NCBI GenBank assembly: GCA_947175645.1
Contig: CAMWNP010000015.1
Span: forward strand, 1 to 62,396
Reading direction: 5' to 3'
Length of the DNA: 62,396 nucleotides
Source: an uncultured Porphyromonadaceae bacterium
Lineage (GTDB): Bacteria; Bacteroidota; Bacteroidia; Bacteroidales; Muribaculaceae
Every line of letters begins with the position of its first letter. The first letter of the stretch is position 1. Shown piece after piece: positions 9,375-26,412 of the stretch. Below the pieces are notes generated by a model. That model was not told the DNA's origin. It was given only the letters and a program-made list of their open reading frames with translations, and ran no database searches. A program made the position numbers and the translations under genes.

Positions 9375-9385
9375 CAAAATATGCC

Positions 9386-9451: not shown

Positions 9452-10672
9452 ATGTCAAAAAAAATGTGCCAAAAACATTTTTCCATCTCAAAAAATGAGA
9501 GCGAGGGTGCACCATCATCCTCAAAAGGAGGGGTAGCAAACATCCTCCAGTACGAACCGCCAGTCTATCGAGAGAACCCCAAAGGGTGCTATATTGAATT
9601 TCGCGCTTTTGACCCTGAACGGGGCGTAATGAGGCGCAAGAGAATGAAGGTGAACCGCATCGGTGGCACCCTGGCACGTCGCAAATATGCAAAGGAAGTC
9701 ATTGCCAGACTCAACGATCAGTTAAAGAATGGTTGGAATCCGTGGATAGCCAAGGACACTTCAGACCTACTGACATTCACAGATGGTTTAACTCGATATG
9801 AAAATTATCTTGAAAAGATGATGGCTGATGGTCTTTACCGTAAAGAAACCTATGCAGGCTATAAATCCTACGTAAAGATGCTGAAAGAGTACATCAAGAA
9901 GATCAATCCTATCTTCTACATGTACCAATTCGACAGGAAATTTTGTGTCGCATTCCTGGACTATGTTTTCATCGATCGCAACAACGGAGCGCAGACCCGG
10001 AATAACTATCTCGGCTTTCTCAAAACTTTCTCAGGCTTTCTTGTAGAGAAGGGCTTCCTTAAATCTCGGCCGACAGAAGGCATTGCCCCTATAAGCAAGC
10101 GACTCTACAAAAAGGGGCGTACAGTTATTCCCATTGACGTAGTAAGGAAGATTGCCGATTACTGCAAAACCAACGAGAAGTATTTCTTGTTGGCGTGTTA
10201 TCTGCTCTATTATTGCTTCATCCGGCCTGTTGAAATGACGAGGCTACAGATAAAACATATTAACGTCAAGCATTGTACTGTCTTTATACCCGGCGAATGT
10301 TCCAAGAATCATCAGGATCAGACCGTAACATTGCCTAAGAAAGTACTACTATACGCCATTGAGATTGGAGTGATAGAAGCCCCACAAAATGATTACATAT
10401 TTTCATACAATCTTCGTCCCGGTCAAAAACAGATAGACCCCAAGCATTTCAGAGATCACTGGGATAATGTTCGCCGTGCATTGAACCTGAAACCTGAATG
10501 GAAATTTTACTCATTGAAGGACACAGGCATCACAGAAATGTGCGACAACAATATGGCGACGATTGCCGTGCGCGACCAGGCACGACATTCATCCCTCGCC
10601 ATTACTGACATCTATACCAGGCACAATGCCAAGGCCAACAAAGATATTGTCAACCTTGACGGAGCACTTTAG
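9452..10672 (+). CDS. int: Tyrosine recombinase (phage integrase)
   Basis: The 406-residue protein has an N-terminal arm-type DNA-binding region, a SAM-like core-binding domain (about residues 110-220) and a C-terminal catalytic domain. Visible active-site parts are FIRPVEMTRL (first Arg, about 258), ARHSSLAITD (His-containing box) and IYTRH (Tyr nucleophile near 388). The middle box, usually HxLRH, reads YSLKDTG here, with Lys in the Arg II place; Bacteroidales phage integrases often carry such variants. The gene points away from the left end, next to attL and its arm site. In the excised circle it would lie downstream of the repressor across attP. Confidence 0.95.
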   Translation: MSKKMCQKHFSISKNESEGAPSSSKGGVANILQYEPPVYRENPKGCYIEFRAFDPERGVMRRKRMKVNRIGGTLARRKYAKEVIARLNDQLKNGWNPWIAKDTSDLLTFTDGLTRYENYLEKMMADGLYRKETYAGYKSYVKMLKEYIKKINPIFYMYQFDRKFCVAFLDYVFIDRNNGAQTRNNYLGFLKTFSGFLVEKGFLKSRPTEGIAPISKRLYKKGRTVIPIDVVRKIADYCKTNEKYFLLACYLLYYCFIRPVEMTRLQIKHINVKHCTVFIPGECSKNHQDQTVTLPKKVLLYAIEIGVIEAPQNDYIFSYNLRPGQKQIDPKHFRDHWDNVRRALNLKPEWKFYSLKDTGITEMCDNNMATIAVRDQARHSSLAITDIYTRHNAKANKDIVNLDGAL

Positions 10673-12561
10673 ACGATAGGATAAAATTCACCCTTAAGCA
10701 TCTGCGACATTCCATCATCTGTGAATGTCGCAGTAATTTTTTCACATAGAAATTTTTTACCACGAATGTAGAATATTGCGCGAGGATTAGGAATTGTGTC
10801 TGAGATGAACGATACCTTGAACTTCTGCTTAGGGTTGATTGATGGAATTTGTAACTGAATATTTCGATGTTGACCAGTAAGACGAAGATCTGGAAGGTGA
10901 TTAGAGAAATAGGTCCAGTCCTGAGTGACATTAACAGAATCGAGCATCGGGTAAGGTGTTTTACCGTAGTTTGGTATGGTCCCATCCCAAAATCCTATGT
11001 ATATAACATCATAGTATTCCGTTTTTTCCTCTTTCTTCCCGGCTTCAATGGTAGCCGCCGGCAGAGGTTGATAGATTTTTTCATCTGTTGTTGAATCACG
11101 GGTCGATTCCTCTTCATAAGTTGAAAACGACAGGAACATCATATATCCCTTATCATCGTCATCACTTACATGTGTGTCCGATACACATACCGGCACAAAC
11201 TCTATTTCTTCCGTATCAACGTCATCGCTTTCTTCAGAGCCACTGCCAAAAATGTTGATTGGTTGAAGCACATACATTTGAGATGCGCCCCCCCTTCGTC
11301 CAGGAGCATCTTTGTGTATTCCGATAGATCGGAATACAAAATAGGTGTCTTCATTGATAGCGTACATAATGTGATTTATGGCATCCCAGATAGAAGGGAC
11401 AACCCGTGTACCACCTTCTGAGAGAGATGCTCCATCACCATATGCCGGATATTGCGCACCATCTGAAGCGATAAGAGCATGTCGTTTATTGGCTTCAATT
11501 AAAGCATTAATATTTGGATAGTCCTTCTTACAGTATTGACCTTCAATGAACCAATCACAGGCATAATATGACTGCATACTATGGACACATTCCTTGAAAG
11601 CCAATCGCTTTGCTCCAATGTAGTCGCAAGACTGCTGTTCCGTAGAAATATCTACATCGTACTCATCAACGACTTCTTGAATTTGAAAAGGAGCCACATT
11701 AGATATGGCAGTTTTTGAGAACACGAATTTGACGTGCTTTGCTTTGTGGTTGATATCAAACTCACACATCAATAACAATTCCAACTTCTCAAAAAACTCT
11801 GTTACAGTCCATCTTGGCAATATTGACTTATAATTTCTTAAATCGCCCTCAGTCCAAGTGTATGGCAATGTGTTACATATTATCAGGAATTTATAATCGC
11901 TGTTTTCCCATTCTGTGAAGTCATAAGAATATCCCACGGCTTCGCAGATTCGTTTTGCGATGACAATAAGATAAGGCTGCCATGAAAGAGAGGACCCGTT
12001 TACCGATGTTTGATAGTCGGTTGTCTGCTGTCTATTAACATAGATATTCTTCTCCCACTTGTACGTGTTATCCTTAAACACTACCCAATTGTTAAATGCT
12101 GTTGGTGACTGCTCATTTATCCAAGGCAACGCCACTTCGCTCTTGCCATATCCGATACCGGCCCAAGCCTGCTCAGGCGTGTAGTTCCCGGATGACGGTT
12201 GTATTCCTAAATCGAGGGCATTTATGTATTTATTTTCGAAAGGATCAGTTGCAGTTTGTTCGCATCGCCCCTCAGCAAACTGGCATTTAACCTCTGTCTG
12301 AGAAACGCCCGTAATCAAGAGAGAGCCAATTGATGAGAATGACTTATCCCGGATTTCGCATTCATAAAATATTTTTTCCTTGTCGACATCTATTCGTTCA
12401 AGATTACCAAAGATGGCACGATTCTGCGAGCAATCGCGGAGTGGGAACGTGAGAGTTAGAGTATAACTGTCACGCCCCATAAACAGACGGTTCTCCGCGA
12501 TGAATTCAAAACTTGATCCGGATTTAAGCAGTGCCGGCTTGCCTTCAACTAATATGATCAT
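10669..12561 (-). CDS. Phage tail protein, probable tail tip / hub component
   Basis: This 630-residue protein follows the tape measure gene with an ATGA overlap, the position of distal tail or tail-hub proteins in siphoviruses. It has no signal peptide. The N-terminal part resembles a beta-rich tail domain (ALLKSGSSFEFIAENRLFMG), and the middle contains aromatic-rich segments such as FFEKLELLLMCEFDINHKAK. I cannot assign an enzymatic domain. It is the last gene of the leftward late region; its 3' end meets the integrase 3' end (convergent, 4-bp overlap) with no obvious terminator, so some antisense transcription into int is possible. Confidence 0.65.
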   Translation of the reverse strand: MIILVEGKPALLKSGSSFEFIAENRLFMGRDSYTLTLTFPLRDCSQNRAIFGNLERIDVDKEKIFYECEIRDKSFSSIGSLLITGVSQTEVKCQFAEGRCEQTATDPFENKYINALDLGIQPSSGNYTPEQAWAGIGYGKSEVALPWINEQSPTAFNNWVVFKDNTYKWEKNIYVNRQQTTDYQTSVNGSSLSWQPYLIVIAKRICEAVGYSYDFTEWENSDYKFLIICNTLPYTWTEGDLRNYKSILPRWTVTEFFEKLELLLMCEFDINHKAKHVKFVFSKTAISNVAPFQIQEVVDEYDVDISTEQQSCDYIGAKRLAFKECVHSMQSYYACDWFIEGQYCKKDYPNINALIEANKRHALIASDGAQYPAYGDGASLSEGGTRVVPSIWDAINHIMYAINEDTYFVFRSIGIHKDAPGRRGGASQMYVLQPINIFGSGSEESDDVDTEEIEFVPVCVSDTHVSDDDDKGYMMFLSFSTYEEESTRDSTTDEKIYQPLPAATIEAGKKEEKTEYYDVIYIGFWDGTIPNYGKTPYPMLDSVNVTQDWTYFSNHLPDLRLTGQHRNIQLQIPSINPKQKFKVSFISDTIPNPRAIFYIRGKKFLCEKITATFTDDGMSQMLKGEFYPIV

Positions 12562-15500
12562 TTATGTTTTGCTTTAGGTGTGATGTTCCGAAGGAGAGTG
12601 GCATATTCTTCCTGGGCCTTGTTAACACCATACGGGCCGGTCACGGTAGTAATGGCGGCGATAGGCTCTTTCAATCGTTCAGATAGTTCTTTCACCGCCT
12701 CGGCAGATTGTGCAACCGCAGCAACCATTAACGCTGATGACGCATCCCCTTCCATGATACGAGCCAACGATTGAGGTGCGGTGATAGCCATTGACACATC
12801 TTCGCTTTTGAGTGAACCGATAGTATTTGTACGCTGAACATAATCCAACTGCTCGATAAGAGCCCGGGCACTTGGATTAGCAAGCAACTTTTGTGATGCC
12901 ACCCATTCGCCGGCATGAACAATGCCGGCCGGTTCGTATTTAGAGCCGGGTTTTGTAAAACCTCCCTCCGCGTAGCCTTCGGCTTCCGCCGCTTTCTGTT
13001 GTTTCTTTAAAAGCGCAATCTGCACAAGACCAGTGGCTGTAGCGAGTCCGGCCAACGTGGGAGCAAGCCAAAGAGCCATAGGAAATCCCGCTTGCAGACC
13101 GGCGCCATAGGCGGCCAGTGCATTTTGTGCTGTCTGTGCTACAGCCTGGGCAACTTTGATATTAAACTCCTTTTTTGTCGCCTCTGCTTTGAGTTTGGCT
13201 ATTTCAGCGTCACGTTTCTTTTCGAGTTTGGCCGTCTTGTAGGTGTTACCCTGCATTGCCTCAATCTCCTTGTCATACTTCTTCTGAGTATTGGCAATTT
13301 CAATACGGGATTGTGCGGACGCAAACTCACCATACATTTCAAGACCAGCAGACATGACGGCAAAGGTATTCATTGCGATGCTCCCGATATCTTCAAATGA
13401 AATACGACCACCATTGGCAATGTTCCTGAAGAAGTCGGCCCAGACCACGCCGAGGTCAAAGAGCATTTTTGTCTGATCATCAAGACAACTCCGGATGTCA
13501 TCATACATAAGGTTTGTATAATATTTTTCAATATTTCTACGGCCTTGCTGATACCTCTTTTCATCAATGAGTCCTTGATCATACTTGTACTTGAGTTCTT
13601 CAAGATCTTTTGCCTTATCAGCGTTTCTCGATGACACTTTGGCAGTTCGGTGTTCTGAGTTGGAAAGATAGTCAACCTTACCATTAGAGGCAGAATTTGT
13701 TTCCGTCTGATACTTGCGTTCAAGGTCGGCCTTGATACGCAGGTACTCTTCTTCGGATATGAGTTTTTTATTGTGCAGTTCATCAAGAACCTTCAATTCC
13801 ATATCCATCCGTTTTTTGAGTGAAAGAAATTCGTAACCCTTACGCCATTCCTCGAGTTTCTGAACATACATCTTTCTTTTCTCGAACATACGAGCACTTT
13901 CAGCATCAGAGATTTGCCGCTCATACTCCAACCACTCTTTAGAACCCTTCTTATATGCGTCACGGAACATCCGGAGATACTTCATCTTGACTTGATAAAG
14001 TTGTTCCTGTTGTGCCATTTCGTTACCATACAACTCATTTTCAGGAGTCAGAGCATTAAGTTTTATGGCATTTTCTTCCGCTTTCTGTTCACGTTTAAGA
14101 GTGGCTATTTTGCGCTTATGGCGTTCATCCTCATGTTTCTTTTCAAGTTCCGCCTTACGAAGAAGGAGTTCCTGATAATCCTCGTCATATTTGAGTAAGA
14201 GGTTCTTATTCTCCGCAGTTTCATCTTTGTAGAGGTCATTGTATATTGCGATTCGATCCTCAATATATTTAAGGTCGATTCGTTCTTTCTCAGCGATATA
14301 TTCTTCGTAAGTGATAAGGCCTTGCGAGTAATTTACAACATTTTCCGCCTTGGCGGCTTCCCAATCACCCTTGGCACCTTCCATTCGGTCACGATATGCA
14401 AGATTTGCCTTTGCGAGTTCTCGTTTAACCTCCAACTCCTGACGTCGTTTTTCTTTCGCTGACAAGACTGCTGAAGTATAACCATCACCGTTACCATCAT
14501 TAAGGTCGGGCGTACCGATAGGGGATTTGGCTCCTGTACGGTATGCCTTTTCTGTTTTAAATTCTTCAAGTAGCCGGCGGGCTTCGTTTAGATCTACTTC
14601 CACCATCTCTGCAGTGCCAGCGAGAGCATCAGAAATACTCAAAACTGAGCCACCGCCAGATTTGACGGCTTTTTCTGCATAGGCTATAAAATTATCAAGC
14701 ATACTATCTTCAAGGTCACGCAATGGGCGATTGAGGCGTGCAGTCACATCAATCTCGTTTAGTGCCTGATTTCTTACATCTGTTGCTTGATACATTTTAT
14801 TTACAAGTTCAGCAGGAGAGTCTTTAATCTCTGTTCCGAGTATTCCACCCGTTAAAAAATTGAGTGAAGCAGATCCATTATATGCCAGTTTAGCACCCCA
14901 CCCTGATTGACCGTCATCAGCAACACGACCTGATGCCGTTATTTCATTTATACGGGCAACAGTTTCAGCGTCAACAGCCTCATGCATACTCATAGACGTA
15001 ACGACACGTTGCGTTAGTTTTGTTGCCTCGCGCACTGTGACGCCATAATCAATAAGTGTATTATGGAGTTCTTTCGAGAACTCTTCCATTTGCTCAGAAT
15101 AATTGCTCTCGACAGCATCGCGGGCATTTTTTATTCCTCGTTCCTGATTGGCAATCCTTATAGCCTCGGACAGGCGGTGATAAGCGGCTTCAAGGTCTAC
15201 GACCCGACCTTTCTCGTCAATCAGACCTTGGAGATATGAGCCATATTGTTCTAACAATTTCTTTTTGGCCTTATTGAATTCATTAGATCCTTCAGTCGCT
15301 CCTTCCAATGCACCGAAAAGTTCATCCAATTCTCTTTTCTCCTTTTCAAGTTCCTTGTTATAACTTGACGTAAGGGTCACGGCCTCCTTCATTTTTGTCT
15401 TAAATTCATCTGCCTTTGGGACCAACTTTGAGATAATGGCGACAAGTCCAGCCAGAAGAGAGATAAGCAGACCGATATAATTTGTCTTAATTACAGTATT

Positions 15501-17210
15501 AAGCAATTGAAATGCGTGTCGGGCTTTCGTTATTTGGCCCGTAAAAGCCAAAAGGGCAATTCTACCGAGCATTAATGAGGCTCTTAATCCACCCTGAATA
15601 GCAATACTTGCTTTCGTTACAAGATTCCAGCCGACAATAGCGGCTTTACATAACCCAATCCAAGCATAATAGGAGCCAATGGTTACTATTGCAATAGTAA
15701 GCACCCCCCTGAACTTTATAATGCCGTCGATGAGGACATTCAGAACTTTAAGAGCCGCGGACCCCGACGATGTAAGATGAGCCATCAAGGGGTATAGTTT
15801 CTCTCCGAGTTCCACCGACAACTCATGAATTTTCTTTTTAGCCTTGTCAATGGTTGCTTGTGCCGTGTTGTTGAAGATGATATATTCGCGTGTGGCCGAT
15901 GAACCCTCTTCAAATGCCTTGTTGGCCTCGCCCATCTCCCACTTCACCATTTCAAGTTTATTTGCAACAGTAGCGAGGACAGTAGACATACGCACGCCAT
16001 CCATACCAAGGTCTTTGAACAAAGGAGAGAGAGCAGCGAGGGCATCCTCCTTGCCCATCTTCTGAAGGGCGCCGAAGAACATCATCAGACCCTCGGTAGT
16101 ATTACGCTGTAATGTCTTGGTAAATTCTTCAACATCGAGGCCCACGGTCTTTGCAATTTCCTTAGGCTTTTGGAAAAGCATCATAATAGTGCGGGAAAGA
16201 GCCGAAGCAGACATTTCCACAGCCTGACCGTTGGCATCGAGAGTGGCCGCGAAAGCCATAATTTCCGGAATGGTCATTTTAGCCTGGGAACCAACACCGG
16301 CAAGACGTTTAGTGAACTCAACGATGTATGGCTTTGAGGCAGTACAGTTCTGGGAAAGGACATTTACAGTCGAACCCACCTTAAGCATGGCATCCCTTGT
16401 GCCGTAGGCTTCTTCTACATCAAATATGTTGGTTAGTTTGGCGATTTCTTGGGTTGCCCCTTGGCCAAGGTCAACAAGAGCCACATTTATGATGTCGGCG
16501 GCTTCAACATATCCTTGCACCGATTCCTTTGTGTTCTTGCCAAGGCGGCCTGCCTCTTGTGCAAGTTCATTCAGTTTCTCTCGAGGAGTACGGGTGTCAA
16601 GAGCCTTGAAAGATTCGTTGAGTTCTTTGACCTCTTGTTTGGAAAGCCCCGTAAACTTCATGGTGTTGGCCATCTGTTCCTCCATAGATGCATAGTCGTT
16701 AACGTAGCCACGCAAGGTTGAGATTAATGTTTGATATCCGGCGATAAGTGCTGCTACAGCCTGGCCGCATTGATACCACCATTTTGAAAAGCGTTGCCAT
16801 AGCGACTCCTGACCCTGAATCTGCTGTTTCAGGACTTTCAGTTGCGCTGATGCCTGCTGAATTTTCTTTGTGTGCTCATCCCATACGGCGGTACCGGGCT
16901 TCAAGTCTTTAAGTTGCTTTTTAAGAGTCTTGAGAGTCTTTTCCAACTGACGGGGAGTTGCAGTGTCAAGGCTCTTAAAAGCCTTATTGACGCCTTCGGT
17001 AGCCGAGCGCATCTCATCGAGTTGCTTCTGATATGTCCGGAGAAGTTTCCGCTGCTTCTCTATATCTTTTGGGTCAGCATTACTCTTTTTCAGTTTGATA
17101 ATAGCCTGCTCGGTGGCCTTGATCTTTTTCTCGACATCAGCCATCACCGTTTTGGCTTGCTCACCGTTCACTTGGAGAGTAACGGTCGCCTTATCATTTA
17201 TTCCACTCAT
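12558..17210 (-). CDS. Phage tail tape measure protein
   Basis: The 1550-residue protein is the longest helical protein of the tail module. The N-terminal 130 residues are coiled coil (for example KKIKATEQAIIKLKKSNADP). The TP901-type core follows, with TDR-like segments about residues 170-480, then hydrophobic stretches near 500-560 and 610 (VLTIAIVTIGSYYAWIGLC; IGLLISLLAGLVAII) and further coiled coil from about 900 to 1350. The C-terminus ends in the typical AEGGFTKPGS and HAGEWVASQ region. Tape measures set tail length; by the usual 1.5 angstrom per residue the tail would be near 230 nm. The ATG at 17210 is chosen over 17255 because it follows the late promoter at 17228-17262. Confidence 0.93.
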   Translation of the reverse strand: MSGINDKATVTLQVNGEQAKTVMADVEKKIKATEQAIIKLKKSNADPKDIEKQRKLLRTYQKQLDEMRSATEGVNKAFKSLDTATPRQLEKTLKTLKKQLKDLKPGTAVWDEHTKKIQQASAQLKVLKQQIQGQESLWQRFSKWWYQCGQAVAALIAGYQTLISTLRGYVNDYASMEEQMANTMKFTGLSKQEVKELNESFKALDTRTPREKLNELAQEAGRLGKNTKESVQGYVEAADIINVALVDLGQGATQEIAKLTNIFDVEEAYGTRDAMLKVGSTVNVLSQNCTASKPYIVEFTKRLAGVGSQAKMTIPEIMAFAATLDANGQAVEMSASALSRTIMMLFQKPKEIAKTVGLDVEEFTKTLQRNTTEGLMMFFGALQKMGKEDALAALSPLFKDLGMDGVRMSTVLATVANKLEMVKWEMGEANKAFEEGSSATREYIIFNNTAQATIDKAKKKIHELSVELGEKLYPLMAHLTSSGSAALKVLNVLIDGIIKFRGVLTIAIVTIGSYYAWIGLCKAAIVGWNLVTKASIAIQGGLRASLMLGRIALLAFTGQITKARHAFQLLNTVIKTNYIGLLISLLAGLVAIISKLVPKADEFKTKMKEAVTLTSSYNKELEKEKRELDELFGALEGATEGSNEFNKAKKKLLEQYGSYLQGLIDEKGRVVDLEAAYHRLSEAIRIANQERGIKNARDAVESNYSEQMEEFSKELHNTLIDYGVTVREATKLTQRVVTSMSMHEAVDAETVARINEITASGRVADDGQSGWGAKLAYNGSASLNFLTGGILGTEIKDSPAELVNKMYQATDVRNQALNEIDVTARLNRPLRDLEDSMLDNFIAYAEKAVKSGGGSVLSISDALAGTAEMVEVDLNEARRLLEEFKTEKAYRTGAKSPIGTPDLNDGNGDGYTSAVLSAKEKRRQELEVKRELAKANLAYRDRMEGAKGDWEAAKAENVVNYSQGLITYEEYIAEKERIDLKYIEDRIAIYNDLYKDETAENKNLLLKYDEDYQELLLRKAELEKKHEDERHKRKIATLKREQKAEENAIKLNALTPENELYGNEMAQQEQLYQVKMKYLRMFRDAYKKGSKEWLEYERQISDAESARMFEKRKMYVQKLEEWRKGYEFLSLKKRMDMELKVLDELHNKKLISEEEYLRIKADLERKYQTETNSASNGKVDYLSNSEHRTAKVSSRNADKAKDLEELKYKYDQGLIDEKRYQQGRRNIEKYYTNLMYDDIRSCLDDQTKMLFDLGVVWADFFRNIANGGRISFEDIGSIAMNTFAVMSAGLEMYGEFASAQSRIEIANTQKKYDKEIEAMQGNTYKTAKLEKKRDAEIAKLKAEATKKEFNIKVAQAVAQTAQNALAAYGAGLQAGFPMALWLAPTLAGLATATGLVQIALLKKQQKAAEAEGYAEGGFTKPGSKYEPAGIVHAGEWVASQKLLANPSARALIEQLDYVQRTNTIGSLKSEDVSMAITAPQSLARIMEGDASSALMVAAVAQSAEAVKELSERLKEPIAAITTVTGPYGVNKAQEEYATLLRNITPKAKHK

Positions 17211-17227
17211 AGATACTTCATTTTTTG

Positions 17228-17262
17228 CAAAAGTATCCACAATTATACGGTGCATAAAAGAC
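17228..17262 (-). promoter_or_regulatory. Late promoter P1 (tape measure operon)
   Basis: On the minus strand GTCTTTTA (17255-17262) and TACTTTTG (17228-17235) are 19 bp apart, and the second is followed by C. The same pair with the same spacing occurs at 31720-31754, 35114-35148 and 42501-42535. The upstream box replaces the usual TTTG and overlaps the U-tract of the preceding terminator. Confidence 0.75.
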
Positions 17263-17291
17263 AGTAGCGGGCCTCAAAGGAGGTCCGCTAC
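17255..17291 (-). terminator. Terminator closing cassette A
   Basis: GTAGCGGGCC (17264-17273) pairs with GGTCCGCTAC (17282-17291) with one G-U pair. On the minus strand the stem is followed by TGTCTTTTATG. It ends the transcript of the 17315-17788 gene just before the tape measure promoter. Confidence 0.7.
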
Positions 17292-17314
17292 CAGCATTGT
17301 CTATATTGACTTAA

Positions 17315-17788
17315 TTATGTAAACAAGACTTTGATGACAAGCCGGGGGATATTCTTGTCAACCGTTTCCACAACCGCTCCTTTAATAAAATCGTATCGAT
17401 TGGCAATTTCTTCCTTATCCTTATCGAAAGCAGTGCCATATTTATTTTTCAGACAGTCTATAAATACGATTGAGTAGTCAGAGCCTGCATTGGTCCAGGC
17501 CACATACAATCTCTCACCCTCATTAAGCGGCTCTATTGTTTTACGGCGGTCTGCGACAGATCGACCTGCAATTTTGACCTCAAGAACCAACGGGCTCTTA
17601 TCGTTAGCGTAACGGTTAACCTCTTCGGCCGTCAGCGGCACAGAGGTTATATCATTAACAAATAATTTCCCGCTCTTAGATGAACCTTTACCCCCATGCT
17701 TCCTGGACGAAAAACCGCCCATCAAAGCGATGGTAATGATGACGAGAGCAATTGTCAACCCGGAAATTTCAAACATACGATTAATCAA
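17315..17788 (-). CDS. Membrane-anchored protein, possible HIRAN-like domain
   Basis: The 157-residue protein has one N-terminal transmembrane segment (ISGLTIALVIITIALMGGF), a Gly/Ser/Lys-rich linker and a soluble domain. The segment with EPLNEGERLYVAWTNAG followed by SIVFID loosely recalls HIRAN domains, which bind DNA ends, but the match is weak and a membrane anchor would be odd for that role. It is the second gene of cassette A, 68 bp after the 129-aa gene, and is followed by a terminator. I infer that it is expressed in the lysogen from leader A. Confidence 0.6.
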   Translation of the reverse strand: MINRMFEISGLTIALVIITIALMGGFSSRKHGGKGSSKSGKLFVNDITSVPLTAEEVNRYANDKSPLVLEVKIAGRSVADRRKTIEPLNEGERLYVAWTNAGSDYSIVFIDCLKNKYGTAFDKDKEEIANRYDFIKGAVVETVDKNIPRLVIKVLFT

Positions 17789-17856
17789 TTATATTTGTTG
17801 TATGGACTATGTACAAAGGTACAATTATTTTATGAATCTGAGCAGTGATAGTAATA

Positions 17857-18246
17857 TTAATTGAAAATCACCTCGGCACGGCGGTTTTCGCCAAAAGGTA
17901 TACAGAGTGAATTTTTGCCGTTGGATTCTGCATACCGGCAAAGGTGCGCCACCATGTGGCGCAGTTGTCGGTTAGACGGAGTTTCCCGGAGATGGGAGAT
18001 GTATTGGTCGTTAAGCAGTTCGAGTTGCTGGAGGTAGCAGGTCTTGTTGAGTTCGTGAGAGCGGCGCATAGATTCGTATACTCGTTCCTTTTCAGTGCGC
18101 ATAGCCTCGCGGGCTTCCACGGAATGGACCTGCAGGATTGCCGTGTTGAGCCGGCCGATGGTCCGGTTTGCGTCTTTGGTGATGGAACGCTGTTCTGCCT
18201 TGAACTGCCGACGCAGTTCGTTCATTCTTTTTTCAAATTCGTTCAT
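17857..18246 (-). CDS. Small helical protein, paralogue of 31809-32198, under leader A
   Basis: The 129-residue protein is highly charged and predicted helical (MNEFEKRMNELRRQFKAEQR, then RTEKERVYESMRRSHELNK), with a short beta-like end (CIPFGENRRAEVIFN). It aligns without gaps to the product of 31809-32198 at about 86 of 129 positions, and 44 bases (18152-18195) are identical between the genes. I do not recognise the family and see no catalytic motif. The start codon lies 4 bp after element a2 of leader A, so its translation is the likely target of that antisense-type leader. It is probably a lysogenic accessory gene. Confidence 0.75.
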   Translation of the reverse strand: MNEFEKRMNELRRQFKAEQRSITKDANRTIGRLNTAILQVHSVEAREAMRTEKERVYESMRRSHELNKTCYLQQLELLNDQYISHLRETPSNRQLRHMVAHLCRYAESNGKNSLCIPFGENRRAEVIFN

Positions 18247-18250
18247 TTCG

Positions 18251-18469
18251 CTTGTTTTAGTTTGGCATTACAGGCAGGGAGGAAAAAGACGGCTGCCATA
18301 TCCCGTCGCCAAACTAAAACAAGACTTGTCTCCGAAGAGCAAAAATTGTAAGGATATGACAGCCGCAGCCGTTTATGTAAGGGCATAAAAAATGCCCGAA
18401 TATGTTCGAGCCGTTAACCGGGTCTCAACGGTAGACATACGTCTTATTTTAGTTGGCACTGCAAATTTA
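18251..18469 (-). ncRNA. Leader A: antisense/attenuator-type RNA element
   Basis: In transcript order on the minus strand: -7 box TAAATTTG (18462-18469, with TTTG at 18490-18493, 20 bp apart); a1 at 18443-18457; a U-loop hairpin GGGCAT-UUUUU-AUGCCC (18381-18397); b at 18352-18364; a' at 18308-18323; b' at 18291-18303, followed by a T-run at 18282-18288; a2 at 18251-18266; ATG at 18246. a' is the perfect 16-bp complement of a2 and pairs with a1 with one mismatch and one bulge. b and b' pair over 13 bp with one G-U, making a terminator-like stem that holds a' in its loop. Predicted short RNA: about 175 nt. Confidence 0.75.
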
Positions 18470-18499
18470 CGTAATATTTTTAAGACAACCAAATATTTT

Positions 18500-19260
18500 A
18501 CCGGTATTTTTACGCCACAGGTAAAGTATTGAAAATCAGGTTTGCTTCTTATGGATTTCCTATGCGTTTTTGAGGAAAATTCATGATTTTCCAGAGGTCA
18601 AAAACGTAAAGAGCGAAAAATGAGCGATTTAGGGGTTTCAAAAGGGAATTTCGCCCCTTTTGTCCGTCGGAAGACCCGCCGCCCGCCCTACGGCGCAAGG
18701 CGCGCCCTGCCCTTGAAACGCTCCCGCTATATGCCAATCGTGCGGTAACGCGCCCCTCGTGCGCCACCATCCGACCGCAGGGAAGTTAGTGGCGATGTGA
18801 GGGGGCTACCGCTCTCCCCCTTGCGGGGGTTATGGCTCGGTAGCGGGTGATGGCGCGTGCAGGGAACAGAACGGAGGGGATAGCGGTCACAGCAATGATA
18901 AGGGAGTGAGGTGTCGGTGTGCTTGACAGATCAGACTACGACAGAGGCTTTCGTGGGTGGCGTTAAACTCGACGTGCCGACAGCGTTGTGTATGTCAATA
19001 CACATGGCTGCCGACACATTGAGCAGCCACGGAACGATAACCGCCGGAAGTAGGCCTGTCAATCACTCCCTGGCCGATAGGCCAAACCTCTCTCCCGATT
19101 GCCGTGAGCCGCGACCCCGGAGTGACGTGACCGACAGTGCGACATTGACCGCTACCGAGGGGGCCGGGGCGGGTCAAACTAAGCAATGAGTCCACTCTCC
19201 ATCTCTCGGAGATCTTCAGTGAGACAGCAGTATCCAAATGATTAAACGAGGAAGGGTATA
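18500..19260. other. GC-rich non-coding block rich in inverted repeats
   Basis: No convincing ORF is present. It contains the nested hairpin GCTACCG...CGGTAGC with inner CCCCC/GGGGG (18805-18844). A long hairpin at 18974-19017 has arms that pair perfectly only on the minus-strand RNA, where two A-C mismatches become G-U. A stretch at 18650-18720 is very GC-rich. It has the look of the non-coding DNA found around Bacteroidales conjugative elements, an impression I cannot verify here. Its role is unknown; packaging, transfer or a structured RNA are possible. Confidence 0.5.
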
Positions 19261-19270
19261 TATCAGAATA

Positions 19271-19312
19271 AAAAACCCCGGCTTAATCTCTGTAAAGATT
19301 GAAGTCGGGGTT
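19271..19312 (-). terminator. Terminator after the fibre operon
   Basis: AACCCCGGCTTAATC (19274-19288) pairs with GATTGAAGTCGGGGTT (19297-19312) with minor mismatches. The minus-strand transcript then runs into TTTTTTA. It follows the 19335 gene by about 20 bp. Confidence 0.85.
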
Positions 19313-19334
19313 AAGAATCCTGGGGAAAGTGGAG

Positions 19335-19733
19335 TTAATAAGATCTGGAAGATATCTTATCCATTATTGCTATTGCGAAAGACTTTGCGAACATTCGCCA
19401 TAGTTGCATACGATTGAAATCGGAGATGTCTTCATCAGAGCGATCCTTGTTTAACATCACAGCCAATTGTTTGTCGTTAGAATAACGTGATTTGATTATC
19501 TGTTCAACGATATCGTCGTAGGAGAATCGCTTGATGATGAAACAGAATTTGCGATTCTCGAAGTACACCTTATTCCCGACAATTTCAACAACTATGGGTG
19601 AGGAGATAGGGAGTTCTTCGAAGTCTTCATGGTTGTAGGCATCGGCAGGAACAGACAAGCAGTTCACCGGTCGGGAAAAATGTTTCAGAAAGTGAAACGG
19701 TTCGGCATAGAGTATGTTTTTATCAGTATACAT
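19335..19733 (-). CDS. Hypothetical phage protein after the fibre gene
   Basis: This 132-residue soluble protein starts 2 bp after the end of the 2000-residue fibre gene and is the last gene before a terminator. It contains a beta-rich middle (SSPIVVEIVGNKVYFENRKF) and a helical C-terminus (RMFAKSFAIAIMDKISSR). The family is not recognised. The position next to a fibre suggests a fibre assembly chaperone or attached subunit, but this is inferred from context only. Confidence 0.65.
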   Translation of the reverse strand: MYTDKNILYAEPFHFLKHFSRPVNCLSVPADAYNHEDFEELPISSPIVVEIVGNKVYFENRKFCFIIKRFSYDDIVEQIIKSRYSNDKQLAVMLNKDRSDEDISDFNRMQLWRMFAKSFAIAIMDKISSRSY

Positions 19734-19735
19734 AA

Positions 19736-22700
19736 TTATAGAGTGTACGAAAGGTTATAACCACAAGTTTCAAGAAATTCAGGCCAGTTGCCTGAGTCAT
19801 AACCGGTGGCCCCGGCAGGGACATAAATAGTTTTCTCAGTGCCCTCGGGTAGACCGGAGCCGGCTCCGCCTGTACCGACCATAATTGATGGGGCGGTCAT
19901 GGCCTCGATGTAGATATCCTTAAGCATGGCAATCTTGTCGAACAATAGGCCCAACGATGTAACCGCCGATCCGATATGTAGAGAACTTGAGTAACCAGTC
20001 TCATCCATCCATTCCACATGATCTTCTTGAAGAAATTCAGAACCGGACGTAAGAGATGGGAGGTGAAGTTCGCCAATCGGACAGTAAATTGCAGGGTTCG
20101 CGGAACTCCATTGGAGGGAAGATAGATCAAAAGAAGGGATTATTGGGGATTCACACCCTGGAACCCATATTGGTTTATTTGCCCTCTCCAGAGAACGTAG
20201 GTTAATCTCGGGTGAACTAGTCTCATTAGGGAGGGTCTCCTGATTAGAGCATAGGGCTATCGGAAGAGCCGTCAATGAACTAAGATCAATGTTCTTTATA
20301 TGGCTTATAGACGGAAGGATTCCATTATATGATGAAGTGTTTAAAAGAGAGAGAGTTTTAAGGGATGGTAGTGATAAAACTTCAACTCCGGTAGAATCAA
20401 TCAATGAAATTGCAGGAGCAGAAGAACTAGACCTTTGGAACCGAGCCGTAATTGACTCCAGAGCAGGGAAATCAATCTTTTTTATACTTCCAGAGATAAA
20501 TCGACTATAACACGTCACAGTTTTCAATACCGGGGCTTTAATCACAGCCTCTGCGGGTAAATCTTTAAATATTATACTCCCAGAGCAGGAGGTAAGAATT
20601 GGGAATTCAGCAAGTTCCAGGTACTCGGATTGTATCAAATATGGACTGGTAGAAGTATACCCAACTGAAAAAGTGGCGAGGTATGGGAAATATGCTTCAC
20701 GAAGGTATAACCCAGCGCCTGTTGAAACTCCTGTCCCTGATGAAATTGGGTAAGTTACCTCTTTGATATATCGGAACGACAGTGAAGTAATACTTGCATT
20801 TTTGAAATACTGGTATTCATTAAACGATGGGGAATTGACCCCATAAAAAGGATTTCCTATATTTCCAGAAACCGCGTCACACTCAGCAAGGGTCATGTAA
20901 TTTGGATTTGCAGCCCATCCGTTACTATAACAAAGACTCATAATATTCGGATTCACACTGCGAGTTATTGCAATTGGTGAGGATGAAACCACGATGGTAA
21001 AAGATTTTGAGAAAAGTTCACGATTTGATTCCGACACCTTCATCTGTGCAATCAGATCAAAGGTTACCGTCTCTTCAGGAACAGAATGAACTATGAGATC
21101 TACAGAGAATATTCCGTCGGTGTATGAGGTTTCACCAATGGTTGCAATTGATGAATTGTCACCGAGGTTGTCTATAGAGAACTCTACATCAACATCACCG
21201 TCAAAATCCAAATCGTTGAGTGAGAACGTGGCTGTATAAGTTCCGGGAGCGGAAATACTATCCAGGGCAGATAAGGTTCCAGTTGTAGGGTAAGAACGTG
21301 GAACAATTGTTATACTTTTTGCGAGAGAAATTATTGACCCATCAGGTTTAACGAATGTAGCCGAGAGTGTAAGGGGCTTGCTCTCGGTCAAGTCACCGAC
21401 AGAGATGGAGCCGTTCTCTAATGTCACTCCTGGAGGAGGCGCCACTAATGATAAAGTATAAGTGCCCTCGAAGACACTAATTACTTCGTAGGAGGCTGAA
21501 GAAAGTGCTTTAACGTCATCCGGCCCCATTATAAAACATATCGGGGAGTTTGATTTAATGTAAAGTTCCGCATTAGGGTTAAAGCAGTTTCGACCAAATA
21601 TTTCATATAAACGACTCAGTTGTTGTTCGCTAATTTCATTTACTTCAACTACTCCTTTAAGAGATAGTGAACGGAATGAACCAAAACGGAGGAGGAGTTC
21701 TACATCGACATTTTTCCAATTTATCCCCTCCAGCGATAGCGAGCAGTTAATGTCATGAGTCGATTTTCCACTTATCCATTCAGTAATAAGAGATAGAGAG
21801 TCAAGTCCCGGACAATTATGGATATGTATATCCGAGATGTTCCACCCATGGTTTCCTATGAGCAGTCCATCAGATGTGAGTAGGGGAAGAGAATCAAGGA
21901 CGAGGGCTCGCATTGAGTCAGGAACGGCGAAGAACTCTATCGGGGCTCCTTGAGCAAAAATCACAGAGGAGATAGAAGTGTTTCGGGCATCAAGAGATCG
22001 GAGATTGTGGTTGGAAGAGAGATCAATGGCGGTTAAACCTTTACATCCCGCAATATTAAGAACTTCAAGGCGAGTGGCCTGAGAAATGCCGGAGAGTTCG
22101 GTCAGTGCGTAGTTGGCTTGAGTAGCAGAGTTGTCGCCAATGATCAGCGATTTGAGGGAAGTCCCCAAACGAGAGGAGGCCACTCCGGCGATCGACAACT
22201 GTGAGATATAAGGGAGGAAACCGGATATGTCAATATCGCGGAGGTATGGGGCTGCGTATAAACGGAGAGGATCGCCCACGTTCAGTACAGAAGAAGTTGT
22301 GAATGTATGGGACTCGCCATTGGAGAGAGCGATTTTCGTTTCCATAGGCACATCGTTGACTCCATATCCGAAAAGCATATCGGAGGCAGCCGTTATCGAG
22401 AACTCCAACCCAGCGGGGGCACCGGCGAGTTTCACTTCAAACGTGTTTGCCTTATACTCACCGCCAACGAAAGTAGCATCCATTCGATAGAACCTTTCAG
22501 AGAGCCACCAACGGCGATGGGAGCGGCGTGAGCCCTGAAGCATGAAAAGATTATTCACTCCACGGTCAGCAAACGGACTGAGATATTTATATCGGGCATC
22601 ACGGTTGTATACACGTTCACACCAAGCCCCGGCCTGATGAGTGTCGAACATCTCGATGGATTTGTCGTAAGAGAGTCCCGCGATGAAAAGAGCCTGATAA

Positions 22701-25700
22701 ACCTTTGCCACCATCTGCATGAAGTCAGGATCTGACTCAAGGAGATTCCAGAGACGAGAGTCATGTCCGGCATAGGCGTAAACTTCTGAGGTGAAAGAAC
22801 CGTCGAGAGTCTGGCGATCGATGGTCGGCGGATAGATCAGAGGGCCATCGTTACGCAACCCATTGATAGTATCGTTATCGTAATTAATGAAGAACCAGTG
22901 CTGTCCATCCTCAGAGGTGAACATCGAGTTTTTAACCACCTGGTCAACGGCTCCGAAAGTCATCAGATAGACATAATACGCTGCCACTTTCGGGATGTCG
23001 AGGTGCTGATATTTCTCCGATGTGAAGTCGGCGGCGGAGACTGTTGAAATCCATTCGGCAAACTCCTTCAGAAGGGAGGTGTCTGTATTACCATCAGGGA
23101 ATCGTCCCTCGAAGGCATCAGCCCATTCATCATCCCAATTATCCGTATCTTTGAAGAGAGCGAGGTGATGGCCGTTGTTAAGAAGTTCCCAGCACTGAGT
23201 GTTGGAATTGTCAAAACCGGGAATATCCGTGAACCCGAATACGGATTCAGTAGATTTATCGTTATTGAAGTTATACTTTCCTATAAAGATAGGTACGTCT
23301 GATGCAGTCTGGCGGTAGAAGATCAGGATGGGGAACCCGTCAACTGTAGTGCGTACATCGTAGGGGTAGTTGTTTTCAAGAGCAGCCGTCTGAGCCGAGG
23401 TGCGGAGAGAGTGTTGACCGTCTACCACAGCATTGAAAAGGATAGAATTCCACAGTCGGGCTATACCTGTGTTATGAGTACCTGAAGATTCGGCATAATC
23501 GGCTTTCAAGCACCAACAATCGACAGGTTGTGCGCCTGGTGTAAAGGAATATTTTCTGGATGGAACAACGTTGCCGTCGGCATCGTAGAGTACCGTAGAT
23601 TCCTTCTTGTTAGTGTAAAGACGGAAGTTCTTTTTTGGGTATGCCATTGAAGAGGTACCCTGTGGACGAAGTGCCGCGTTGACGGCCTTAAAATATAGTT
23701 CGGGATGTTGGAGATTAATGTACTCTACATCCACATCTATCTGATGACTTTTGTCGGTAGTTGCCTCAAGTGCAGGGATATTACCGGTTATGATCATAAC
23801 CGGGACCTGACCAGAAAGTGCATCAATAGAGAAATCGGAAGATTCCTCAGAAAGTACATTATTTCTTGAGAATGCTGACTGGAAGTCAGAAGGGGAGGAG
23901 CGGTAAAGGATGAAGTTATTCAGGATCTGGTCATCGGTCAACGCCGTGTCATATATACGAATATCAGAAAGGGAGATACTTGCAGATTCTGAGGATGCAA
24001 AAGATAGAGGTTTCGCGGAGATAAAGTTGTCAGAGCCCACGAAGTTCGCGGCGGCTGACACTATACCATCGATGTAGAGGAGAGCCAACCCTTTATCGGC
24101 TGTTCCTGTGTGGCGATTGATCACCAGTGAGACACGTACCGATTCCTGAGGTTTGAACTTCGACGAGAGAGTGACCCCGTTTGCCGACCGTAGTGATATT
24201 TCAGAAGCAGTCAGGAGCAGGCCGGTACCGGCGGAGTCTCTGAGATCGCATAATATTGCATCTGAGTCTGATACGTTAAGTGTAGAGAACTCAAATTCGA
24301 TGGTTTTCCCGGTAGTGGTGGCATCGGTGGCCAGAGGTGCGTAATTCACCGAAAGAGAGGCATCTCCGGTGAAGAGAAGCCGGTTATTTACCCAACCGGA
24401 GTTGAGATTCCACGAAAACCCTGAAAGTGTAGATTGATAATCGCCATAGTCCCATCGGTCGCGGTCGGCAGATTGATTCGTTTTCCCTTCAGCACGGAGG
24501 GCGAGGACAAGCGAATCGGTGATCTCGTTCACAGATGCCGCAGACTCAGCGACTATGAGGGTGATTAGTGAGTCAATCTCTCCGATAGAAAGTAGGAGTT
24601 CTCGTGCCCCGGCGGTCATGGGTGTAAAAGTGAGCGACCCGACAGACTCATTCGCAAGGAGGAGGCTCTGTGAAGTCCCATCGTCAAAAAGAGCTTTCAA
24701 CTCTGTTGAAGAAGCGTATGAGGGGTTAAAGAGTGCAACATCCAGAGAGAATGGTTCAAACTGTTTGAGAGAGGTTATTACCGGTGTGGATGGGATAATG
24801 TCGGCAGATGGAGGGAGGTCAACAGCATAAGAGATAACCGGGGATTGTGCCCCCGCAGAGAAAATAAACTTGCGGTAGATCTGCCGGGAATAGAATTTTT
24901 CACCATCTATAGATACGTAGGCACGGAACTGGAGGGTATGAGCCCCGTGAGTGAGGTTGTTAAGAGAGATGTATTTGGTGCGGGTGGTTGCCACTTCATT
25001 TATAATATCCTCAGCCGGGATAGATGTCACTCGCTTCCCGTCGATAAACCACTCTAATGTTTTAGCCCCATAACCGGAAATAGTATATGGTATTTCGAGT
25101 TGGTTGTCTTGAGCGGAGTAGACATGGGAAATATCGAAAGAGGAGGAAAGAGCGAGGTCTACGACCTGATATGAAACACCGACAGTGGTGGCCGCCAAAG
25201 TAGTTTGACCGACGATAGAGATACGAACTGAGTTGGCTCCGGTGGCGAGATAATCGTCTACGATAAAACTGACCGACGTCCCGGCTCTGAATTTACGTGT
25301 TACGGTGTTTGAAACAGCCCCGTGAGAGAAAGTGAACGTACAAAGGACATCATCACCCACGCTCTGCCCTGACTTATTTTTGATGTCGAAGGTAAATTCG
25401 ATGGCCTGACCGGTAGACCCAAGGAGTATCGGGACGAACTTCGGCGAAATGAGGTTTATTTCAGCCGAATAGTTCGCCGGGGCGTCAAATGTTCCGAGCA
25501 ACAGGGTAGAATTCTGATCGGGATTTTCAAGGTATTTATCACGAGCGTTCCCATCGGCAAACACGAGATAACGTAAGGAGGAAGAGTCATAGTAGAAGCA
25601 CCCGGCCTTCGAGGAAATGGATTGTTTGAGAAAGTTCTCGATGTCGGCGACATCATGTGCGGTGCCGTCCTCAGGGTTACACCAAGGCTCTTCGATGGAT

Positions 25701-25738
25701 GTGATAGGAGTTGATATTACTTTGAGTTTTTTAGCCAT
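19736..25738 (-). CDS. Giant tail fibre/adhesin with Ig-like, LamG-like, CotH-like and leucine-rich regions
   Basis: The 2000-residue protein appears modular. Ig-like beta repeats cover about residues 85-390. A LamG/concanavalin-like region (about 405-615) ends with the typical LSDIRIYDTALTDDQI. A CotH-kinase-like region (about 690-1060) includes RPQGTSSMAYPKKNFRLY, LKADYAESSGTHNTGIARLW and WFFINYDNDTINGLRN. A short leucine-rich stretch lies near 1225 (LEVLNIAGCKGLTAIDLSSN), more Ig-like sequence near 1410-1595, and a leucine-rich BspA-like C-terminal part follows. There is no signal peptide, as expected for a virion protein. Being the largest protein beside the tail module, it is the best candidate for host recognition. 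The CotH assignment is by motif memory and needs a profile search. Confidence 0.75.
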   Translation of the reverse strand: MAKKLKVISTPITSIEEPWCNPEDGTAHDVADIENFLKQSISSKAGCFYYDSSSLRYLVFADGNARDKYLENPDQNSTLLLGTFDAPANYSAEINLISPKFVPILLGSTGQAIEFTFDIKNKSGQSVGDDVLCTFTFSHGAVSNTVTRKFRAGTSVSFIVDDYLATGANSVRISIVGQTTLAATTVGVSYQVVDLALSSSFDISHVYSAQDNQLEIPYTISGYGAKTLEWFIDGKRVTSIPAEDIINEVATTRTKYISLNNLTHGAHTLQFRAYVSIDGEKFYSRQIYRKFIFSAGAQSPVISYAVDLPPSADIIPSTPVITSLKQFEPFSLDVALFNPSYASSTELKALFDDGTSQSLLLANESVGSLTFTPMTAGARELLLSIGEIDSLITLIVAESAASVNEITDSLVLALRAEGKTNQSADRDRWDYGDYQSTLSGFSWNLNSGWVNNRLLFTGDASLSVNYAPLATDATTTGKTIEFEFSTLNVSDSDAILCDLRDSAGTGLLLTASEISLRSANGVTLSSKFKPQESVRVSLVINRHTGTADKGLALLYIDGIVSAAANFVGSDNFISAKPLSFASSESASISLSDIRIYDTALTDDQILNNFILYRSSPSDFQSAFSRNNVLSEESSDFSIDALSGQVPVMIITGNIPALEATTDKSHQIDVDVEYINLQHPELYFKAVNAALRPQGTSSMAYPKKNFRLYTNKKESTVLYDADGNVVPSRKYSFTPGAQPVDCWCLKADYAESSGTHNTGIARLWNSILFNAVVDGQHSLRTSAQTAALENNYPYDVRTTVDGFPILIFYRQTASDVPIFIGKYNFNNDKSTESVFGFTDIPGFDNSNTQCWELLNNGHHLALFKDTDNWDDEWADAFEGRFPDGNTDTSLLKEFAEWISTVSAADFTSEKYQHLDIPKVAAYYVYLMTFGAVDQVVKNSMFTSEDGQHWFFINYDNDTINGLRNDGPLIYPPTIDRQTLDGSFTSEVYAYAGHDSRLWNLLESDPDFMQMVAKVYQALFIAGLSYDKSIEMFDTHQAGAWCERVYNRDARYKYLSPFADRGVNNLFMLQGSRRSHRRWWLSERFYRMDATFVGGEYKANTFEVKLAGAPAGLEFSITAASDMLFGYGVNDVPMETKIALSNGESHTFTTSSVLNVGDPLRLYAAPYLRDIDISGFLPYISQLSIAGVASSRLGTSLKSLIIGDNSATQANYALTELSGISQATRLEVLNIAGCKGLTAIDLSSNHNLRSLDARNTSISSVIFAQGAPIEFFAVPDSMRALVLDSLPLLTSDGLLIGNHGWNISDIHIHNCPGLDSLSLITEWISGKSTHDINCSLSLEGINWKNVDVELLLRFGSFRSLSLKGVVEVNEISEQQLSRLYEIFGRNCFNPNAELYIKSNSPICFIMGPDDVKALSSASYEVISVFEGTYTLSLVAPPPGVTLENGSISVGDLTESKPLTLSATFVKPDGSIISLAKSITIVPRSYPTTGTLSALDSISAPGTYTATFSLNDLDFDGDVDVEFSIDNLGDNSSIATIGETSYTDGIFSVDLIVHSVPEETVTFDLIAQMKVSESNRELFSKSFTIVVSSSPIAITRSVNPNIMSLCYSNGWAANPNYMTLAECDAVSGNIGNPFYGVNSPSFNEYQYFKNASITSLSFRYIKEVTYPISSGTGVSTGAGLYLREAYFPYLATFSVGYTSTSPYLIQSEYLELAEFPILTSCSGSIIFKDLPAEAVIKAPVLKTVTCYSRFISGSIKKIDFPALESITARFQRSSSSAPAISLIDSTGVEVLSLPSLKTLSLLNTSSYNGILPSISHIKNIDLSSLTALPIALCSNQETLPNETSSPEINLRSLERANKPIWVPGCESPIIPSFDLSSLQWSSANPAIYCPIGELHLPSLTSGSEFLQEDHVEWMDETGYSSSLHIGSAVTSLGLLFDKIAMLKDIYIEAMTAPSIMVGTGGAGSGLPEGTEKTIYVPAGATGYDSGNWPEFLETCGYNLSYTL

Positions 25739-25749
25739 AATAAGGGGTG

Positions 25750-25935
25750 TTATCTGTTAGAGTTACGTTCATTCCATCCGGTGCCATACATCCACCCATG
25801 AGAGTGCTGCCACCAACCTCCGGCGATGCAATTCGATATCGCTTGCCAAACCAGACGGGAGCCGGAATATACGGCAGAGATTGCACGTCGGCCGATGTTG
25901 ATTACAGAGATAGGGGTATTGCCGTTAGTTATCAT
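25750..25935 (-). CDS. Small phage tail-associated protein
   Basis: This is a 61-residue protein with the pattern ISVINIGRRAISAVYSGSRL followed by VWQAISNC and a Trp-rich end (GGWWQHSHGWMYGTGW). Short proteins of this type recur upstream of fibre genes in Bacteroidales prophages; their function is not known. I take the ATG at 25935, which overlaps the end of the upstream gene by 11 bp, rather than 25965. The fibre gene begins 12 bp downstream in the same operon. Confidence 0.65.
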   Translation of the reverse strand: MITNGNTPISVINIGRRAISAVYSGSRLVWQAISNCIAGGWWQHSHGWMYGTGWNERNSNR

Positions 25936-26353
25936 CTTCAAGGACAAAATATAGGGTTGATTCACTTAAATTGTTTGACGTTACCAGTTCTAAATATTCT
26001 TCTTCAGAACAAACCTTGATTGAGAGGTTTTCAAGTTGAACATCTCGGATGTAGTCAATTTTATTAGATAAAGAGTTAATGGCAGTATCGATAGCGGTTA
26101 ACAGTGAATCCTTTTGAATCTGAAGGTCCGAGCGTAGAGATGTAATCTCCTCTGCATTATTGGTAATAAGAAGGCGTAGATTTGAGAATTTTTTGTTTAT
26201 AGTGTAAATTAATTCATCTTTTACGTCGAGAGTCTTCATTAAGGTAATGATTTCATCAAGCAAACTCGCTAGCGATGTAGGAGAGATTGAATCTTGGGCC
26301 ACCATTAAGCCCAAGACCTCAATCTTTGTGTGGAGAGAGGAGAATGAAGTCAT
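25925..26353 (-). CDS. Coiled-coil phage structural protein
   Basis: The protein has about 142 residues from the ATG at 26353; the frame is open to 26455 but the extra part overlaps the upstream gene. The core is helical and coiled-coil-like (TSLRSDLQIQKDSLLTAIDT). The C-terminus, VCSEEEYLELVTSNNLSEST and then LYFVLEDDN, is the kind of beta-hairpin end seen in several phage fibre-network proteins. It probably belongs to the baseplate or fibre assembly, judging from the position between neck-type genes and the fibre. Confidence 0.6.
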   Translation of the reverse strand: MTSFSSLHTKIEVLGLMVAQDSISPTSLASLLDEIITLMKTLDVKDELIYTINKKFSNLRLLITNNAEEITSLRSDLQIQKDSLLTAIDTAINSLSNKIDYIRDVQLENLSIKVCSEEEYLELVTSNNLSESTLYFVLEDDN

Positions 26354-26412
26354 AGAGTTTAGAAAGTTTGAAACGAAATTAGAGAGATGTTCCCGGATGG
26401 CAAAAGACGGAT

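Follow-up and report, generated by a model that had tools for sequence, protein, structure and literature searches.

What could be the function of a phage leader in which one short sequence lies at the predicted RNA 5' end, recurs as its complement between the arms of a terminator-like stem and appears a third time directly before a start codon? Leader A, on the minus strand of the 62,396-nt stretch analysed here (the window), raises this question. Judged from its sequence and that of its relatives, it looks like one of an undescribed family of phage gene switches, whose three matching pieces vary in concert between phages.

Leader A and the prophage that carries it

Re-examined in the window, every feature of leader A was found where a preliminary description had placed it: a promoter, followed on the minus strand by the order a1, hairpin, b, a', b', T-run, a2, ATG.

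18462..18493, minus: promoter of Bacteroidota type; TTTG (18490-18493), N20, TAAATTTG (18462-18469)
18441..18457, minus: a1, predicted RNA 5' end
18433..18444, minus: P0, with the 3' half of a1 as its 5' arm; AGAC (18444-18441) with GUCU (18436-18433)
18408..18426, minus: P1, hairpin GAGACC ... GGCUC with a single mismatch
18387..18411, minus: t1, terminator-like, GCUCGAA-CAUA-UUCGGGC and then AUUUUUU; excludes P1 and P2
18381..18397, minus: P2, the U-loop hairpin described earlier, GGGCAU-UUUUU-AUGCCC
18352..18365, minus: b, 5' arm of t2, the later of two terminator-like stems
18330..18339, minus: P4, mini-hairpin CUC-UUCG-GAG
18308..18325, minus: a', complement of a1 and a2
18283..18303, minus: b' (18290-18303) and U-run (18283-18287), terminator-like t2
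18251..18266, minus: a2, target copy directly 5' of the AUG
18246-18244, minus: ATG of ORF1
17857..18246, minus: ORF1, 129 aa; no Pfam match and one weak PHROG of unknown function

The proposed pairings also hold. The perfect complement of a2 (18251-18266) in a' (18308-18323) is exact over 16 bp; the imperfect match to a1 amounts to 81% complementarity across 21 nt (18434-18454 with 18312-18332); and b and b' are 93% complementary over 14 nt and followed by TTTTT, as a terminator-like stem would be. The U-loop hairpin is likewise present, as P2; what had been missed are the early stem t1, which shares P2's 5' arm, and the small hairpin P0. The predicted terminated RNA is ∼176 nt long and ends after t2, and t1 predicts a second product of ∼70 nt. 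With up to three mismatches, the a2 16-mer occurs four times in the window (0.55 expected), its two exact occurrences being a2 and a'. The ∼0.8 kb before leader A (18500-19335) is GC-rich and holds no convincing gene; by eye, the stretch 5' of the leader in locus L005 resembles it (AAAAGGGG-like and CCCTTTT-like tracts).

Leader A lies in a prophage that has two further leaders, B and C, with the same order of elements and different a sequences.

9311..55984: prophage, 46.7 kb, bounded by a 17-bp repeat of a tRNA-Pro 3' end (9311-9327 and 55968-55984)
9452-10672: prophage integrase
32196..32425, minus: leader B; promoter TACCTTTG (32418-32425), a1 (32405-32413)
Leader B hairpins, minus: P1 arms 32388-32393/32378-32383; t1 arms 32378-32383/32360-32365 and U7
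Leader B, minus: b 32318-32331; a' 32275-32284; b' 32260-32274; a2 32202-32211; ATG 32196-32198
31809..32198, minus: ORF1 of leader B, 129 aa; 67% identity with its leader A counterpart
45775..46036, minus: leader C; promoter TACCTTTG (46029-46036), a1 (46006-46025)
Leader C hairpins, minus: P1 45973-45992; t1 45951-45976
Leader C, minus: b 45884-45898; a' 45838-45857; b' 45821-45836; a2 45784-45803; ATG 45775-45777
45331..45777, minus: ORF1 of leader C; stop and next start overlap as TGATG, after an AAGGAGG-like site

Family matches in the prophage include tape measure, portal, large terminase, head protease, primase, HTH and antirepressor proteins; the tape measure gene (12558-17255) lies downstream of leader A's ORF1. 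Leaders A and B each stand 5' of one of two 129-aa paralogues, and neither has overlap coupling to a second gene. In leader B the arms of t1 and P1 differ in their letters and keep their relations to one another; this leader falls under the threshold of model R1 (13.4 bits, E 0.42) and was recognised by reading. A tblastn search of phage records with leader A's ORF1 gave no match, its gene was found in its own genome only, and DNA comparison with phage records returned weak or partial matches, the better ones being unannotated gut phages. Among the tail genes, a 2000-aa protein (19736-25738, minus) has a CotH kinase-like match (PF08757, 1.5e-8). The prophage probably has protein-based lysogeny control too, since it encodes a P22_AR_N antirepressor (47864-48379, minus) and a Cro/C1-type HTH protein (55494-55907, plus).

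A recurring layout and its alternative folds

How far does this layout extend? The order promoter, a1 at the RNA 5' end, P1, P2, b, P4, a', b' with U-run, a2 and AUG recurs in more than 100 leaders, found in phage contigs and, mostly, in Bacteroidales genomes. Of 61 genomes searched at the DNA level, nine had matches; the layout was seen on reading in the window's own genome and in G008, G010, G019 and G038 (one G019 copy has a poor a2), and the other four held short matches. A first covariance model, built from 10 leaders over the core from P1 to b', that is, without a1 and a2, found A and C in their own genome and missed B. It was then run over 246 sources, nearly all drawn in by a pattern on P2 and the start of b, and gave 41, 29 and 33 matches at E ≤0.01. 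Cut-off matches (L066, L067, L125) and weak or opposite-strand matches were dropped; 110 leaders were carried on, B being added by hand, of which 95 remained at ≤90% identity and 91 of these had enough flank. The promoter can be aligned on TTTG in 81 of the 91, with a T-rich/TTG box upstream and TA before the TTTG.

The leader-bearing records include Bacteroides, Mediterranea, Prevotella, Muribaculaceae, Dysgonomonas, Proteiniphilum and Candidatus Symbiothrix, and one leader (L186) sits in a metagenome-assembled genome titled Clostridium, perhaps misassigned. At E ≤0.001, a second model matched 10/40 genomes of the window's family (its own and two already known among them) and 11/41 from the genus of Bacteroides congonensis, a species that itself has a leader (L198), some matches in either set being weak. 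Prevalence is uncertain, because the first model, run with strict filters over 295 genomes of the order, found only five. Two tandem leaders lie 350 nt apart in G008:C11 (86683-87177; L007, L199), their first ORFs short and related, their a sequences unlike; tandem leaders occur likewise at L089 (G351). A virus contig (G346) and a genome contig (G402:C35) each carry three leaders; their spacing is identical, so they are probably one prophage seen twice.

The covariation to which the preliminary description had looked is there, in a1/a'/a2 of the 91 leaders and, for b/b', in the core helices. Over 92 distinct sequences, the helices of P1, P2, b:b' and P4 are paired in 93.9% of cells, and 331 cells are changed on both sides, compared with 107.6 in shuffled and at most 46 in slid alignments; the alignment was fitted to the model, so these counts lean towards it. 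Changes on both sides occur in all five pairs of helix 1 (P1; 93.0% of cells paired) and all three of helix 5 (P4); b makes up helices 3 and 4. The conservation of P2 and of the first five letters of b proves nothing, because the search pattern fixed them, a bias of which helices 1, 4 and 5 and the loci found by a pattern on b' and the U-run are free. Additionally, L396, which was brought in without the P2 pattern, keeps the P2 pairing with other, compensatory letters.

In the early stem t1, the 3' arm of P1 pairs with the 5' arm of P2, and a U-run comes next. The stem can form in 105 of 116 leaders (11 lack it), with a median of 7 pairs and z below -1 in 77 of the 105; its mean energy is -6.7 kcal/mol and becomes -3.8 when the inner letters are shuffled, a comparison in which the choice of the best position somewhat favours t1. 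In unconstrained folding, the t1 arm is fully paired in 58/108 leaders (0.25 in shuffles), and P1 is a competitor that often wins. Because its 5' arm is common to t1, P2 would be an anti-terminator partner, not an inert hairpin; in other words, P1 with P2 on the one hand and t1 on the other are predicted to be mutually exclusive, as antiterminator and terminator would be. The second stem differs: t2 is not a classical terminator/antiterminator, since a1:a' and b:b' share no bases, and a 5'-end pseudoknot of both duplexes seems plausible given their energies in leader A (b:b' with a' free, -53.9 kcal/mol; a1:a', -26.7). At t2, 32 of the 91 leaders have a longest T-run of just 2-4. Two further ideas were dropped: a P0-to-P1 relay, judged by eye, fits leader A and fails in L162, and an upstream reading frame through P2 has no common frame (27, 22 and 32 of 86 in frames 0, 1 and 2).

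The three a blocks, in cis or in trans

Across the 91 leaders, a' scores on average 16.87 against its own a2 and 14.89 against its own a1, compared with 8.54 and 7.66 in the respective 728 swapped pairs, and the own pair exceeds the 99th percentile of swaps in 69 (a2) and 68 (a1) of the 91. At 23 places from later genome searches, the same holds for 17 (a2) and 19 (a1), or, without four repeats of known leaders (G399, G402), for 13 and 15 of 19; the failures among the 23 lie within weak or cut matches. The pattern on b' and U-run alone gave 16 loci, eight of them new (seven distinct), all with a1, a' and a2 and with scores of at least 15.3 (a2) and 14.2 (a1), here without the swap control. Positions are kept as well: a1 starts 3-5 nt after the promoter TTTG in 74/91 leaders, and in 85/91 the end of a2 lies at -4 to +7 nt relative to an ATG.

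Do these blocks pair as RNA, or are they sites in DNA? At a' bases that face different letters in a1 and a2, a2 makes the Watson-Crick pair and a1 a G-U pair 109 times and the reverse holds 15 times, in a local alignment that itself favours G-U over mismatch. A gap-free comparison of 87 leaders counted 77 transitions that make a wobble and 20 that make a mismatch (p 5e-9 against 0.5; 1e-3 against a2 base composition), with 68 transversions besides. This bias of a1 towards G-U points to a-block pairing as RNA. It counts, together with the three different a sequences in one prophage and the covarying core helices, against a DNA-level element in which a1, a' and a2 would be repressor operators or recombination sites; such a reading would suit the location of a1 at the predicted start site and the inverted repeat that a' and a2 form, and we disfavour it as extremely unlikely. 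Part of the difference between a1 and a2 may come from P0, which uses the 3' half of a1; P0 regions, measured in 74 of 109 leaders, fold better than the mean of their shuffles in 66.

The two pairings are close to balance in strength. Median duplex energies with a' are -26.8 for a1 and -29.1 for a2, with a2 the stronger partner in 65/109 leaders and a1 in 30/109; a1:a' is predicted stronger than a2:a' in leader B and, by one of two calculations, in leader A. A few leaders keep a good a1:a' and have a poor, weak or shortened a2 (L016, G394:C114:2378-2541, G387:C14:19583-19735 and G334:C1:27165-27320), and these are either decayed or aimed at another target.

Such energies bear on a comparison with Gifsy-1 IsrK. 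IsrK, the nearest case described, is a short terminated RNA encoded 5' of the message that read-through yields, and it activates in trans; in isrK-orf45-anrP a variable ORF1 has a stop that overlaps the next start (AUGA), with an antirepressor downstream. The gene order there is that of our leaders (promoter, terminated RNA, variable ORF1, AUGA overlap): ORF1 overlaps the start of gene 2 in 51/80 leaders (not in A or B; TGATG at C), against 13/175 for upstream ORFs. A difference from IsrK is that there are often several differently addressed leaders per phage here, and IsrK, as a trans activator, has the sign opposite to the repression first proposed for leader A. If the leaders worked by IsrK-type activation, the full message would be silent through a':a2 and the short RNA would open it in trans; since a2 is the stronger partner in most leaders, a free a1 strand would seldom win a', and we consider this reading improbable.

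Would the short RNA act in trans at all? As many as four leaders occur on one phage contig, their a sequences differing (one G375 pair cross-scores at 0.85 of its own), and cross-reaction between leaders of one genome is no weaker than between leaders of different genomes matched for similarity (0.473 vs 0.456 matched; 47 pairs, 1591 of 2000 draws at or below; one locus without a genome handle, two repeats and four leaders with an a2 score under 11 being left out). At up to two mismatches, the a2 16-mer of leader A has no further place in its 3.17-Mb, 139-contig assembly, in which a reversed control pattern has five, so the only target of a' in its own assembly is its own a2. Both the single target and the lack of excess orthogonality within a genome, as well as the t1 arms common to P1 and P2, would fit an attenuator confined to cis, in which a phage or host factor switches between P1/P2 and t1, a1, a' and a2 tune the folding of the same molecule, and no trans-acting RNA takes part. 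What this cis-only attenuator does not readily explain is the rate at which a changes. Among close relatives the a' block does not diverge faster than the adjoining linker (identity 0.72, against 0.72 to 0.78), and among distant relatives it diverges less; nevertheless, that a' should keep pace with an unpaired linker although two partners must follow each change hints at selection on specificity. The objection falls if specificity itself is what is selected. We judge the cis-only attenuator, which overlaps in part with a self-antisense switch, to be rather unlikely as the full account. The one sequence test for trans action, the comparison of leaders within and between genomes, was negative.

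A proposed self-antisense switch among known systems

The genes behind the leaders are varied. ORF1 is complete in 80 of the 91 loci, with a median length of 82 aa, and has a hydrophobic stretch in 37/80; a Shine-Dalgarno-like site precedes ORF1 in 0/80 and gene 2 in 56/80. Clustering sorts the ORF1s from 87 loci into 37 groups, some of which are cut or misread starts. A PHROG scan of 75 ORF1s (five of the 80 lay outside it) gave a named function for two only, antirepressors or their regulators (L153, L063), and a family of unknown function for one further. The 102 downstream proteins, counted with these two, match antirepressor, head and other families, antirepressor families accounting for a few. 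Defence families are not a regular cargo: just two, with two members each, appear among the 102. Could ORF1 then be a small toxin, often membrane-borne, with the leader RNA as its antitoxin? Its short length and hydrophobic stretches would agree, but the many ORF1 clusters, the two antirepressors among them and the other phage genes behind make a toxin-antitoxin unit very unlikely. In type III toxin-antitoxin systems, tandem RNA repeats stand before the toxin; leader A has no tandem array, just the a1/a2 pair and two short repeats. In hok/sok-type metastable messages, the translation start has a near-copy further upstream and the two compete for one pairing partner, as a2 and a1 would for a'; these messages differ from the leaders in that no conserved toxin is found among the ORF1s.

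We favour, with moderate confidence, the explanation that the leaders are a phage self-antisense attenuation switch. A housekeeping-type promoter would start the RNA at a1; the RNA would fold either as P0-P1-P2 or as t1; then t2 would form from b and b', its loop carrying P4 and a', which is complementary both to a wobble-weakened a1 and to an a2 ending at the start codon of a short ORF1 that has no Shine-Dalgarno site and is often ATGA-coupled to gene 2. Many transcripts would end at t1 or t2. In these, a1:a' and b:b' may coexist as a 5'-end pseudoknot that leaves a2 free, whereas a':a2 pairing, within a read-through message or from a terminated copy, would block ribosome start on ORF1 and thus keep the coupled genes silent. 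The net effect would be an operon that is low in the lysogen and bursts when the short RNA is absent, and a superinfecting phage of the same address would be restrained. That the leader is an RNA attenuator acting on ORF1 translation is likely; that its short RNA also acts in trans as a repressor stands at about even.

Studied parallels also include phage immunity RNAs. The P1/P7 C4 antisense RNA, a repressor, follows an a1 - a' - a2 scheme and acts at a small ORF that stands 5' of an antirepressor gene (c4-icd-ant). The antisense there also matches an upstream and a downstream site, the latter at a small-ORF start; the leaders depart from C4 in their b/b', which makes up an internal terminator-like stem instead of serving as a second arm of antisense. 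At E up to 10, leader A gave ten Rfam matches, none of them C4, isrK (a further member of the C4 clan) or c4-2, and no Rfam family, C4 and c4-2 models included, matches the leaders scanned (the window and 32 relative loci). One leader contig, L068 (leader at 9767-9919), carries a c4-2 RNA (RF02944, C4 clan; reportedly from Weinberg 2017) at 8092-8169 on the minus strand, upstream of a 432-aa ORF that looks GIY-YIG endonuclease-like by eye; as a regular companion of leaders, c4-2 was found at none of 15 further loci. One source lists 'c4 RNA, acts on icd and ant mRNA' (PMC10695390), and another places C4 RNAs in Proteobacteria and phages (PMC2864571).

In satellite phage P4, the order is seqA, CI RNA (seqB), seqC; CI RNA arises by processing of a longer transcript and, by pairing, causes premature termination (PMC4825925). 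The leaders share with it the order upstream copy, antisense, downstream copy, and this order and the covariation support the earlier proposal of an RNA-level switch of P4-like logic. They differ from P4 in that a terminator-like stem carries the antisense in its loop, the RNA would begin with a1 and a2 directly adjoins the start codon. The leaders would thus appear to work like P4 CI, P1 C4 and Gifsy IsrK without being scored members of the C4 clan. Among the papers that our literature searches listed, judged by their titles and opening abstract lines and drawn from a collection short of most subscription papers, none describes such a leader.

A bolder reading is that the leaders form a large unnamed RNA family by which Bacteroidales phages run several operons through individually addressed self-antisense switches, each built from a pseudoknot at the RNA 5' end, a pair of terminators in tandem and a target at the start codon, and with a as an immunity address. 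We offer it tentatively, as possible and still doubtful. If true, a resident prophage would silence only phages of the same address, and a newcomer would at first produce a burst of small proteins, perhaps with anti-defence roles, until its own short RNA switched them off. The studied cases of RNA-based phage control considered here, P4, P1 C4 and IsrK, come from Enterobacteria. The leader family would carry such control, in a new layout, into one of the main gut phyla; it gives phage operons that have no recognised genes a common regulatory mark, and it supplies ready-made, differently addressed switches.
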